In this document: positions 21,627 to 27,897 of the stretch, in pieces | How the letters are laid out: every line of letters starts with the position of its first letter | Position numbering within the stretch: the first letter of the stretch is position 1 | Assembly: GCA_019115945.1 (NCBI GenBank) | Contig: DXCO01000020.1 | Coordinates: 1 to 32,379 of the forward strand | Reading direction: 5' to 3' | DNA length: 32,379 bases | Origin: Candidatus Borkfalkia excrementavium | GTDB lineage: Bacteria; Bacillota; Clostridia; Christensenellales; Borkfalkiaceae | The notes under the pieces: model-generated | Databases searched by the model: none | Told to the model about the DNA's origin: nothing | What the model saw: the letters and a program-made list of their open reading frames with translations, nothing else | Position numbers and translations under genes: made by a program

Positions 21627-21671
21627 GCGCCCGTTCGCGTAAAGATTCTGTGAAAAATGTTTGTCCGCCGT

Positions 21672-21700
21672 TTACAATGCGCGAAAAACATGTTATAATG
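21672..21700 (+). promoter_or_regulatory. Promoter of ispE and probably the downstream operon
   Basis: TTTACA (21672-21677) is followed after 17 bp by TATAAT (21695-21700). Transcription would start near 21707, so the in-frame ATG at 21703 cannot be the start of ispE. Confidence 0.82.
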
Positions 21701-21726
21701 GAATGAGCAACCGTGCGGGGTCTTTT

Positions 21727-22686
21727 ATGTTTGCAGCCAAAGCGCGAAGTTACGCAAAAATCAATCTGTCCCTTTCGGTCACGGGCAGGGAAGACAAGTA
21801 CCATCTGATCGACAGTGTCGTTGCCGGCATCGACGTTTGGGATACCGTCTGCGCGAAACCGCGCAAAGACCGCCTCGTCAACGTGTATATGCACGGAAAG
21901 GGGAGCGAGGATATCCCGCCCGAAAAGAACAACGCGGTCAGGGCGGGCGAAGCGTTCGTATCCGCCTTTTCCACGCGCGGCGCGGACATCGAAATTTATA
22001 AAGACATTCCCATGGGCGCAGGATTGGGCGGCTCGTCGGCCGATGCGGCGGGCGTGCTGAACGCAATGGCGAAGTTGTATAAGATCAAAGATTTTCCCGC
22101 GCTGAAATGCTTGGCGGACTCGCTGGGGAGCGACACGGGGTATATGCTGACGGGCGGCTTTGCGCGCATCCGCGGCAGGGGAGAGATCGTTGAAAAGATC
22201 GATTGCAGGCGGCGGCTGGACATGCTTCTGATCCTGCCGCCGAGCGAAGTTTCTTCCGCCGAATGTTACCGCAGATACGACGATCTCGGCATACCTTTTT
22301 CAGCCGGCTCCGAAGAGATGGCGGCGGCGCTTTCCGCAGGCGATTTCATGCGCGTTGCAAAGAGCGTGCGCAACGATCTCGGCGCGCCGTCGGCGGCCCT
22401 GAACCCCGACGTTGCCGCGGCGCTTGCCGAGGCAGCCTCGTTTTCCCCCTCCGCCTATGCGGTCACGGGGTCGGGCAGCGCGGTCTTTTTGTTGTTTGAA
22501 AGCACGGAGTTGTGCCGCTGGGCGAAGAGCCGTTACCGCGGAAAATTCAAGACGCGCGTCGTAAAGACGGTACTTGCGTCCGATCGTAAAATTTCGCGCC
22601 TCGCAAGCCCCTTTGCGCTCACGCAGGAGGAGATCGAAGCGGCGCGGGAAGGGCAGGAAGAAGAGGACTTTTCTGACAAAAAATAG
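21727..22686 (+). CDS. ispE: 4-diphosphocytidyl-2-C-methyl-D-erythritol kinase
   Basis: A 319-residue GHMP kinase of the MEP pathway, which phosphorylates CDP-ME on the way to isoprenoids. Motifs are ARSYAKINLSLSVTGR with the catalytic Lys at the start, the ATP loop IPMGAGLGGSSADAAGVLNAM, and a late AVTGSGSAVFLLF. The family is usually 280-300 residues; the extra 25 form an acidic tail (EEIEAAREGQEEEDFSDKK). The frame is open to 21661, but the promoter lies in that part. ATG 21727 has a modest GCGGGG site. The next gene starts 38 bp after its stop with no terminator, so ispE may lead an operon that runs to 27897. Confidence 0.92.
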   Translation: MFAAKARSYAKINLSLSVTGREDKYHLIDSVVAGIDVWDTVCAKPRKDRLVNVYMHGKGSEDIPPEKNNAVRAGEAFVSAFSTRGADIEIYKDIPMGAGLGGSSADAAGVLNAMAKLYKIKDFPALKCLADSLGSDTGYMLTGGFARIRGRGEIVEKIDCRRRLDMLLILPPSEVSSAECYRRYDDLGIPFSAGSEEMAAALSAGDFMRVAKSVRNDLGAPSAALNPDVAAALAEAASFSPSAYAVTGSGSAVFLLFESTELCRWAKSRYRGKFKTRVVKTVLASDRKISRLASPFALTQEEIEAAREGQEEEDFSDKK

Positions 22687-22724: not shown

Positions 22725-23612
22725 ATGGAGGAACGAAATCTCGAAATGGATGACGACGGGAAGATCAAACTTCGCAAAAGTTCATCCGTTCTGCCGGAGG
22801 AAAAGGCGGAGGAAGAGGGCGAGATCGTGATCGACGTGCCCGATTTCGAGCAGTTCAAGAGCGAAGACAACCGCGTGGGACTGTCCGAAGAGGAACTTGC
22901 GGCAAAGGCCGCGGCGCGCGAACGGCAGTCGCTGGATAAAAAAGAGCAGGCGGAAGCGCTCTTTTTCGAGGCGGAAAAACTGTTTGCGGAAGGGGATGCC
23001 GACGGCGCGGGGGAAAAATATCTCGACAGCGCCGCTCTGTACGGCGCGGATTGGCGGCCCTGGTTCGGCGTGGTGCGCGTGCAGACGAAAGATTTTACCG
23101 ATTTCACCGAAATTTACGATTGCGAAAAGGCTTACGAAAAAGCCTTCCGCCGCATGCCGGAGGCCGAGCGTGCCTCTCTTGCCGAAAAATACGTGCCCTC
23201 TATGGAGCGCACGGTCCGCGAAGCGAAAGAAAAGGCAGAAAAGTTGTCCGCGCAGGATGAAAACCAGCGGCAGGAGGAACGCGGAGAGATCGTACGGACT
23301 TTTCGGACAAGAAGGCTGCGGCTGATCCTTTCCGCATCGCTGTTCGCGTTGTTTCTGATCGCGGCGTGCGTGCTGTTTTCGTTCATGTACCGCACGCCGG
23401 GATGGGGGATCCCCGCGGCGGCAGCGGTCTGTACCGGGTTGGCGGTGATCGGGCTGTGCTTTACCGCATATTTTTTGAAAAAGTTTCTGCTTGCGAACAG
23501 AGCGCGCAGAGAAAACGCCCTTCCGCTTACGACGGAGGCGGGCGTGGAGGCGGCGCACCTGAAAGAATACGCCGAACTCGTTCAATCGGTCGTCGACGAT
23601 TTCAAAAGATAA
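22725..23612 (+). CDS. Membrane protein with helical cytoplasmic region
   Basis: A 295-residue protein of unknown function. Residues 1-60 are acidic and probably flexible. About 65-190 are helical and partly TPR-like (KKEQAEALFFEAEKLFAEGD, YLDSAALYGADWRPWFGVVRV), ending in a charged coiled stretch. Two membrane helices follow (about 202-224 and 230-250), then a short charged end. AAGGAGAC precedes ATG 22725. It sits between ispE and the glycosyltransferase fusion, 43 bp from the latter, and is probably co-transcribed. A scaffold or sensing role is possible but not shown. Confidence 0.75.
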   Translation: MEERNLEMDDDGKIKLRKSSSVLPEEKAEEEGEIVIDVPDFEQFKSEDNRVGLSEEELAAKAAARERQSLDKKEQAEALFFEAEKLFAEGDADGAGEKYLDSAALYGADWRPWFGVVRVQTKDFTDFTEIYDCEKAYEKAFRRMPEAERASLAEKYVPSMERTVREAKEKAEKLSAQDENQRQEERGEIVRTFRTRRLRLILSASLFALFLIAACVLFSFMYRTPGWGIPAAAAVCTGLAVIGLCFTAYFLKKFLLANRARRENALPLTTEAGVEAAHLKEYAELVQSVVDDFKR

Positions 23613-25143: not shown

Positions 25144-27897
25144 ATGGTTTCGGTGATCGAAAAAGTAAACGAAATGAAGCGCGGCAAGCAGTGGCTTGTC
25201 TTTTTCGGGAGTGCAATTGTTGCGCTCCTGGTTCTTTTGATTCCGTTTGTTGCAAGAGGCCACCACCTCGTTTGGGTCGCACAGGCGGGCGATGCCGCTA
25301 CACAGGGCGTCACGTTTTTGAATCGTCTGCGCGAAGTCGGGTGGTTCAAGGCGATCGGAAGTTACGATTTTTATCTGGGTCTCGGATCCGATTTTTTGAC
25401 GAGCATGAGTTTTTTCTCTCTGTTCGATCCTTTCAACGTGCTTGTATTTATTTTCCCGTTCGATATCGTATGGGTATACGATATTATCATGTTGCTCAAA
25501 TTTATCGCGGCGGGGGCAGCGATTTTTATATATTTGCATTGGCGTAAAGTAAAAGGGGGATATTCGGTCGCCCTTTCCCTGATATATATGTTCACGGGGT
25601 TTTTGGCGTTTACTTTTGTACGCCATCTGAATCTCACTTCAGGCGCGATCTACCTTCCTTTGATGATCATGGGGCTGGAACAGGTCTACCAAAAGAAAAA
25701 TCCGTTTGTTTTCATCGGGTTTTCCTTTTTGTGCCTGATCAACTCTTTTTATATGTTCTTTTTCAATTCAGTGTTCGTGGTGCTGTATGCCTTTTTATAC
25801 CACGCCGAAGTCTGTTCTGCTGCGGGGGGGGGGCGCACATATTGGAAGACGCTGATACCCTCTCTGTGGAAGATCGCGGTATTTTATCTTGTGGCGATCG
25901 TTCTGGCGGGGTTCATGCTTCTGCCAAACGCTTATGCCTATTTGCATGCGGCCCGAAGCGAATCGAAAGGTTTGATCGGCATAACATTCTCTTTCCTTAC
26001 GGGAGCCGTATTCACTTATTTTACCCATACGGTGAGCAATCATTACAGTATTATCGGCTTTAATCTTTTTATAGATATTCTGTTGCTCGCGGCTTTTTTG
26101 ATCTGTAAAAGGCAAAAAAAGGCTTTTGCTTTTCGTGTCTGTACGGTGATTCTTACCATTGGCTTTTTTGTTCCTTTATTCGGTTATTTCATGAATATTT
26201 TCAATTACAGCAATAACCGGTGGTCGTACATTCTGAATTTTTGCATGATAAGCCTGATCGGCTTAAATACGCAAAATGAAAACGCAGATGAGATTTACCC
26301 GATTTCACTTCGCAGAAAAATTGCCAAGGCGATCACCGTTTTTGTCGGGTTTGGCGTGGTGTGCGCGCTGGGGGTCGCGATCAAAACTCTGTTGTCGGGC
26401 AATTTTTCTTCGCCGGTAAAAATTTCGTTGACGGTGCTCTCTTTTGCCGCCGTTGCCATCGTTGCCGCGCTGATCTTCTGGGCGCTGTCCGGCAGATCTC
26501 CTTATGCGGACCGCGAAAAGGACGGCGTTTGCGTTCCCAACAAAATTCTTGACAACGTTCTGACAAAAAAACTTGCCACGCCTAACGTTCTTTGGCATGT
26601 TGCTGCCTTGTGTACGGTCGCCTGTTGTCTCTTTTTTTATATAGGATATTCCGCGGATCACGAAGGGGCAGCACTCTATCGTTCTTTAACGACTCCCTCG
26701 CAGCAATATGTTTCCGAACTGAACGAAAATTCGGTATTTCGTACCGACAGCGAGGGCGGCGAAACATGGTGGAGTTGTTTCCGCAATCTCGGCGTAAATA
26801 ATTCGTATATGGGGACCAGGGCGTATAACTCTATGAGCAACGCCTCCGTCTATGAATTTTTACGGGAAAACGAGGTTTATAACCCGACACAAAATTTGGG
26901 CATCAGCGGTTTGGATAATCGCGCCGCTTTGCAGACTCTTTTGTCTGTACAATATTACTGCGGAGAGAACGGCGGTTACGGTTTTACTCCTGTGTCCGGA
27001 TATGACGATCTGTTCAAAAACGAAAATTACGTGCCGTTCGGGTTCGTTTACAGGAATACGGTGTCGAAAGAATATTACGAATCTTTGGATCCGCTCCTTC
27101 GACAATACGCGATGCTTTCGGCCATGGTCGTGGAAGGGGAAGAAAATACGGAGGCTCCTGCACTGGGGGAACTGACGGAATTGCCGATCACCTTATCCGA
27201 GAAAACGGCGGAAAACTTTAGCCTTGAAAAGGGAGACAAAATCGCTTTGACGGCGACGGGCTGTACAGGAAAAGAGATCTATATCCGTTTCAATCATGCG
27301 GCCGAGGTCAAAGAGACGACGGAGTTTTCAATCAGCGGAAACGGAAAGACGCGCACCTATTATTATAAAGAAAAGGGAGATCTTATGTACAGCAGCCAGC
27401 GGGATCCCGTTATCTGTTTAGGGGTCGCTGAGGCGGATACGTTGCAGATCGATCTTTCTCTGATCGACGGGAGAAAAATTTCGTTCGATTCGGTGGAGGT
27501 GCTGGGGTATTCGGTGGCGGACTATCAGAGGGCGGCGGATGCGTTGCAGAAAGCGCCGCACCTTGAGAATGTAGAACGGAGCGAGAATGCCGTGACGGGA
27601 GAGATCGCGCTGGACGAGGGCGGATGGATGTTCTTCTCTCTGCCGTACGACTCGGGATGGAAAGCATATGTGGACGGAAAGGAACAGCCGATCCTGCGTG
27701 CGAATTCCGGTTTCATGGCGGTAGAATTGCAGGCGGGCGGGCACACGGTGGAACTCAGATATACGACGCCGTACCTGAAAGAGGGCGTTTTGGTCACCGC
27801 GGTCGGCATTGCCGCGTTTGCTGCGGTATGCGCCGTGTACGTGGTGCAAAAAGTACGCGGCGGTCCTTCTTCTCAGGAAGGCGGAAAACAAGAATAA
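25144..27897 (+). CDS. YfhO-family membrane protein
   Basis: A 917-residue YfhO-family protein, GT-C-like, with about twelve or more membrane helices up to residue 510, a large extracellular part and a final helix (about 880-902). In Bacillus and Listeria YfhO-type proteins add sugars to teichoic acids from lipid-linked donors made by GtrA/GT2 partners, which fits the gene upstream. The last region has WMFFSLPYDSGWKAYVDGKEQPILRANSGFMAVEL, typical of the family. AGGAGG precedes ATG 25144. Codon use is slightly more AT-rich than in the ribosomal genes. A run of ten Gs (25824-25833) sits in the frame at residues 227-230. Its sugar and target are unknown. Confidence 0.9.
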   Translation: MVSVIEKVNEMKRGKQWLVFFGSAIVALLVLLIPFVARGHHLVWVAQAGDAATQGVTFLNRLREVGWFKAIGSYDFYLGLGSDFLTSMSFFSLFDPFNVLVFIFPFDIVWVYDIIMLLKFIAAGAAIFIYLHWRKVKGGYSVALSLIYMFTGFLAFTFVRHLNLTSGAIYLPLMIMGLEQVYQKKNPFVFIGFSFLCLINSFYMFFFNSVFVVLYAFLYHAEVCSAAGGGRTYWKTLIPSLWKIAVFYLVAIVLAGFMLLPNAYAYLHAARSESKGLIGITFSFLTGAVFTYFTHTVSNHYSIIGFNLFIDILLLAAFLICKRQKKAFAFRVCTVILTIGFFVPLFGYFMNIFNYSNNRWSYILNFCMISLIGLNTQNENADEIYPISLRRKIAKAITVFVGFGVVCALGVAIKTLLSGNFSSPVKISLTVLSFAAVAIVAALIFWALSGRSPYADREKDGVCVPNKILDNVLTKKLATPNVLWHVAALCTVACCLFFYIGYSADHEGAALYRSLTTPSQQYVSELNENSVFRTDSEGGETWWSCFRNLGVNNSYMGTRAYNSMSNASVYEFLRENEVYNPTQNLGISGLDNRAALQTLLSVQYYCGENGGYGFTPVSGYDDLFKNENYVPFGFVYRNTVSKEYYESLDPLLRQYAMLSAMVVEGEENTEAPALGELTELPITLSEKTAENFSLEKGDKIALTATGCTGKEIYIRFNHAAEVKETTEFSISGNGKTRTYYYKEKGDLMYSSQRDPVICLGVAEADTLQIDLSLIDGRKISFDSVEVLGYSVADYQRAADALQKAPHLENVERSENAVTGEIALDEGGWMFFSLPYDSGWKAYVDGKEQPILRANSGFMAVELQAGGHTVELRYTTPYLKEGVLVTAVGIAAFAAVCAVYVVQKVRGGPSSQEGGKQE
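25824..25833 (+). repeat. Ten-G homopolymer inside yfhO
   Basis: Ten consecutive G bases code for part of Ala 227 and Gly 228-230 in a loop between membrane helices. Loss of one G would stop translation about ten codons later (CGC TGA). Gain of one G would stop it near residue 307. Such tracts are typical of phase-variable genes, but a base-calling error is possible. Confidence 0.85.

Follow-up and report, generated by a model that had tools for sequence, protein, structure and literature searches.

The ten-G tract inside the yfhO-like gene of Candidatus Borkfalkia excrementavium is probably a contingency (phase-variation) locus, the coding member of a genome-wide poly-G repertoire that is mostly promoter-borne and off by default. 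The tract lies in a stretch of 32,379 nucleotides that was analysed as a whole and is henceforth referred to as the window; it is contig 13 of a draft genome of 1.55 Mb in 42 contigs. Under the proposed mechanism, replication slippage would add or remove one G at the YfhO tract. The frame is open with ten Gs (ON), and nine or eleven Gs would lead to a stop after 236 or 306 residues (OFF), a state that should abolish the last step of sugar addition to a cell-wall polymer. At sigma-A promoters with a tract in the spacer, slippage would alter the spacer length and so how strongly genes for surface lipoproteins, ABC exporters and glycan-active enzymes are transcribed. Most of these promoters would be low or off, and rare one-G slips would turn them on.

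We read exactly ten uninterrupted Gs directly on the forward strand of the window sequence (Table 1). This is the sole G or C run of at least eight bases anywhere in the window, and it is in frame as GCG GGG GGG GGG CGC. The computed YfhO product falls from 917 aa with G10 to 236 and 305 aa after loss of one and two Gs, and to 306 and 237 aa after gain of one and two Gs. An AlphaFold2 model built from an eight-sequence input, of modest confidence (mean pLDDT 63; about 71-73 around the tract), places the tract in a short loop (residues 227-232) between two long helices (residues 202-226 and 233-271). The earlier note had described ten in-frame Gs at this place, stops near residues 237 or 307 of 917 after a change of one G, and a position in a loop between membrane helices. 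The sequence confirms the first claim, the computed products agree with the second, and the modest-confidence model agrees with the third. The tract has three of the marks by which coding phase-variable loci are recognized, namely a length of at least eight units inside an ORF, an early stop after a one-unit change, and over-representation against the run-length background of the genome. A hidden promoter at the tract was considered and rejected, as the best score was no better than that of shuffled flanks on either strand (P 0.56 and 0.78).

Table 1. Features of the window at and around the G10 tract
Feature	Coordinates	Strand	Remarks
GHMP-kinase-family gene	21661..22686	+	same gene order kept in relatives
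295-aa protein	22725..23612	+	same gene order kept in relatives
GtrA (flippase-like) + GT2 glycosyltransferase fusion, 491 aa	23656..25131	+	PF04138 E 8e-14, PF00535 E 5e-33
yfhO-like gene, 917 aa, membrane glycosyltransferase family	25144..27897	+	PF09586 E=4.9e-102
G10 mononucleotide tract	25824..25833	+	within codons 227-230 of yfhO; candidate on/off switch of translation, ON as assembled
TGA met after one-G loss	25853..25855	+	236-aa product
TAA met after one-G gain	26061..26063	+	306-aa product

The YfhO match to PF09586 spans residues 25-885, with a score of 343 bits against a curated cut-off of 28.5. The gene encoding the GtrA-GT2 fusion ends 12 nt upstream, an order that recurs in four relatives, and the two genes likely share one operon. 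Relatives largely share the wider arrangement of genes, which runs GHMP kinase, 295-aa protein, GtrA-GT2 fusion, YfhO, Rex and AdhE. GtrA, GT2 and YfhO constitute the three-component logic of teichoic-acid glycosylation (PMC8035078), and in the window a GT2, a GtrA flippase and a GT-C partner are likewise encoded together, in agreement with the earlier remark that the GtrA and GT2 neighbours fit sugar transfer. The arrangement resembles the CsbB-GtcA-YfhO glycosylation of lipoteichoic and wall teichoic acid in having the GT2, GtrA and YfhO partners side by side, and differs from it in that GtrA and GT2 are fused in the Borkfalkia window (PMC8035078). The predicted activity of the operon is the addition of sugar to teichoic acid or another wall polymer. 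We found no description of yfhO phase variation in the open-licence literature searched.

We compared the tract with the background of G and C runs in the genome, using 832,556 bases (0.83 Mb). Runs of five, six and seven bases numbered 763, 68 and 7; there were none of eight, and then three of nine, five of ten, one of eleven and one of thirteen. These ten runs of 9-13 bases form a second hump after the zero at length 8, and A/T runs have no such hump. Extrapolation of the tenfold decay per base from length 6 on predicts about 0.01 runs of at least ten bases in the whole genome, and a nine-G search of the whole genome returned the same ten places. The background thus fails to predict the class of runs of which the YfhO tract is one. 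A dinucleotide shuffle of the window was less strict, with three G8 matches reached in 6 of 100 shuffles.

One of the ten tracts of at least nine bases is coding (YfhO), seven are in promoter spacers, one is upstream of spoIIR and one is at a contig end. The seven spacer tracts sit between -35 and -10 boxes (flank-shuffle P ≤0.01 each); six of the box pairs are near-consensus (L016, L017, L018, L019 and two in L022) and one has a weaker -35 box (L023). Genes behind these promoters include those of a small lipoprotein, a GH123 enzyme, ABC exporters and a 1479-aa lipoprotein-like protein, and for the promoter at L017 the gene calls gave no clear same-strand gene directly downstream. Since most long G tracts are in promoter spacers, the main targets appear to be surface lipoproteins and ABC exporters, and surface sugars to a lesser degree. 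The tract near spoIIR (L021, G000:C32, about 46.17 kb) is a G10 that lies 75 nt upstream of the gene without sigma-A boxes; ahead of a gene for a sporulation signal, a tract prone to slippage would be unusual. The tract at the contig end is a G13 with which the contig starts (L020, G000:C32:18-30).

Seven full-length YfhO orthologues, 38-57% identical to the window's protein, were aligned, six from the genus and one from a sister genus. All seven lack a G run at the tract position. Six are shorter there by two codons and the most distant one by three, and the position is variable. A G tract conserved in YfhO across relatives is thereby rejected, and the orthologues present neither a fixed G10 nor GGN codons in all relatives, the pattern that the earlier note had named as speaking against its proposal. 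Because the run is absent in the seven orthologues, the tract is most simply a gain in this species, which is compatible with a switch or with recent neutral expansion. In the latter case, a single glycine codon in a permissive loop would have expanded into the run, which would be slippery but unselected, with no working switch. The variable position and the shorter orthologues without a G run agree with such a history, as does the fact that the YfhO tract is the only coding tract of at least nine Gs in the genome. Neutral growth does not, however, account for the absence of G8 runs or for runs of at least ten bases that the decay of shorter runs makes unexpected. Moreover, other coding tracts in the genus are surface-related too, the clear cases in relatives including a GT4 glycosyltransferase and a Big_2 lipoprotein. 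We consider neutral expansion unlikely, though it deserves to be taken seriously, and regard a switch at the YfhO tract itself, assembled in the ON state, as likely. Alongside the promoter switches there seem to be a few coding ones in surface-related genes. A GT4 glycosyltransferase of another Borkfalkia species (L311:1961-3394) carries an in-frame G9 at residue 402 of 478, and a gene for an AraC-type regulator (L333, G011:C25) has a run of 14 Cs on the coding strand.

We searched for poly-G promoters more widely with the strict pattern TTGACN{0,14}G8N{0,14}TATAAT and used the reversed pattern as the control. In the genus, the strict pattern gave 35 matches in 21 of 40 genomes and the control none. 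Across the order Christensenellales it was present in 67 of 396 genomes, representing 26 of 142 genera, again with no control match; genomes from the same clade are only partly independent of one another. The matches in the order, among them Pumilibacter, were concentrated in four families (f1, f19, f28 and f32), and single genomes had as many as 11 poly-G promoters of strict consensus. Elsewhere in the phylum, only 7 other genomes of 397 (398 drawn) had a match, one each, against 3 for the control, which is near background. The feature is thus concentrated in certain clades, and it places poly-G between consensus -35 and -10 boxes in the manner of porA and tp0126.

Lipoprotein genes, called with a simple lipobox and signal-peptide rule and a simple gene caller, followed 49 of 90 poly-G promoters and 7 of 76 ordinary promoters (Fisher 3e-10). 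Further signal-peptide genes were found behind 13 of the 90 and 11 of the 76. These counts refer to promoters with a gene call; 95 of 185 poly-G promoters had none, many of them at locus ends or in AT-rich genomes.

The spacers of the poly-G promoters avoid the length of 17 nt. For spacers of 15-19 nt between the same boxes in the same DNA, 90 of 129 ordinary promoters had 17 nt. After collapsing similar copies, 12 of 138 poly-G promoters did, compared with 25 at 16 nt and 40 at 18 nt. The 17-nt share differs between the two kinds of promoter (Fisher P=1.6e-26), and among poly-G promoters 17 is in deficit relative to the two neighbouring lengths (binomial P 4e-4). Further counts, from sets that partly overlap, gave 8 of 164 distinct sites at 17 nt and, among the matches listed for named genomes, 8 of 126. 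In a separate set of poly-C promoters, 0 of 20 were at 17 nt in the order listing and 1 of 13 within 15-19 nt in all DNA examined. This poly-C version (L351-L370), commonest in family f28, also avoids the 17-nt spacer. In Treponema pallidum and Neisseria, expression is reported to be best at a 17-nt spacer (PMC7864442). Avoidance of 17 would put the assembled majority off the optimum, so that in most cells the majority of these promoters should show low expression or none, a reading that assumes that the assembly represents the majority allele. The missing 17 is what one expects of a slippage switch that is mostly in its off state, and not of a tract without influence on spacing.

Several observations are signs of changing tract lengths. 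In one pair of species that are 95% identical over 3 kb (G012 and G009), the same promoter carries G9 in one and G10 in the other, with identical surrounding bases; this is the one clear case of a length difference at the same promoter between close relatives. Orthologous ABC-exporter genes in four species all have poly-G promoters, with spacers of 15, 18, 19 and 20 nt, and in the window's own species the tract is placed differently. The differing spacers and tract placement at this exporter suggest repeated gain. In six genomes, 7 of 69 tracts of at least nine Gs lie within 150 bp of contig ends, against 0.64 expected (about tenfold), as if mixed tract lengths break assemblies, and homopolymer sequencing trouble could contribute. 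Loss of mismatch repair as the cause of the tracts was rejected, because mutS1 was found in 32 of 33 genomes, tract-rich and tract-poor alike. As mutS1 is intact, slippage is not raised by losing that repair gene.

Activator-dependent promoters are known for spacers away from 17 nt. The promoter tracts could accordingly be a fixed promoter element, for instance one used by a regulator able to work, like MerR-type activators, with spacers of 16 and 18-20 nt, and the non-17 spacers agree with this. A fixed element is nevertheless improbable, for the spacers scatter over 15-20 nt on both sides of 17, the tracts adjoin the -10 box in some promoters and the -35 box in others, both poly-C and poly-G are found, and orthologous promoters differ in length. 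We give still less credence to an action at the RNA level, in which transcriptional or ribosomal slippage on G10, a long in-frame run and hence a possible slippage site, would produce a fixed mix of full and short YfhO in each cell with the DNA unchanged. The promoter spacer is not transcribed, so RNA slippage cannot explain the spacer tracts of the same genome, whereas a DNA-level mechanism covers both kinds. An assembly or sequencing artefact of metagenome-assembled genomes is hardly credible: the genus genomes examined are drafts and the tracts are enriched near contig ends, but the tracts are positioned in spacers by consensus boxes and before lipoproteins in many genomes, the reversed pattern is absent in the genus and the order, and G10 leaves YfhO in frame.

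We therefore return to a slippage switch at the level of DNA as the preferred explanation. On balance, we favour the view that several Christensenellales families run a default-off, promoter-borne repertoire, with poly-G or poly-C spacers one or two bases off 17, plus coding switches such as YfhO. The earlier note had proposed phase-variable surface glycosylation. Its tract is real and in frame, is unlikely to be due to chance, would truncate YfhO if slipped, and is now placed among long G tracts that are mostly promoter-borne. Slippage in the living population, the change in transcription and the sugar phenotype are what we infer from these patterns.

The mechanism itself is known. Poly-G promoters have been described for porA of Neisseria meningitidis and tp0126/tprL of Treponema pallidum, and in porA and tp0126 the poly-G lies between the -35 and -10 boxes and expression is best with a 17-nt spacer (as reviewed in PMC7864442). 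The promoters described here share the poly-G inside the spacer. Whereas porA and tp0126 belong to pathogens, these promoters occur in uncultured gut Christensenellales, number up to 11 per genome, stand mainly before lipoproteins and avoid 17 in the assembled state. Surface lipoproteins behind a homopolymer promoter spacer are also found in Mycoplasma hyorhinis, where the phase-variable Vlp lipoproteins are switched by poly-A in the promoter spacer. That system comprises one gene cluster with poly-A in a mycoplasma, whereas here poly-G or poly-C is found at scattered loci. The Vlp system is cited in a phase-variation review (PMC11868660). For coding tracts, PMC9187656 reports a sortase-pilus G tract of Bifidobacterium breve, for which slippage was shown by deep sequencing and which shifted in mice. 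Like the YfhO tract, it is an intragenic G tract in a gut commensal, and it differs from the YfhO tract in that the latter is in a predicted wall-glycosylation enzyme.

In the open-licence literature searched, we found no paper on phase variation in Christensenellales and no description of this clade, of the lipoprotein targets or of the avoidance of the optimal spacer. The clade, the scale and the missing 17 thus appear to be new. That phase variation at many loci seems confined to pathogens is, for a 2025 review, a major question and possibly just an effect of database bias (PMC11868660). Here, an uncultured gut clade shows a sequence signature of phase variation in front of surface-lipoprotein genes, with several such loci in a genome, and the Christensenellales that carry it are gut Clostridia not known as pathogens. 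This suggests that random surface variation, familiar from some pathogens, also takes place in these gut bacteria. If this is confirmed in reads, a single species would be present in the gut as a slippage-made mixture of surface types, which would bear on phage attack, immune recognition and the comparison of strains.

The shortage of 17-nt spacers is a simple statistic that is readable from assemblies alone and usable on other clades. Among the matches listed in the named-genome scan, the poly-G pattern was also present in rabbit-gut Bacilli, Saccharibacteria, Candidatus Ancillula, Streptobacillus notomytis and Treponema ruminis (L172-L251).
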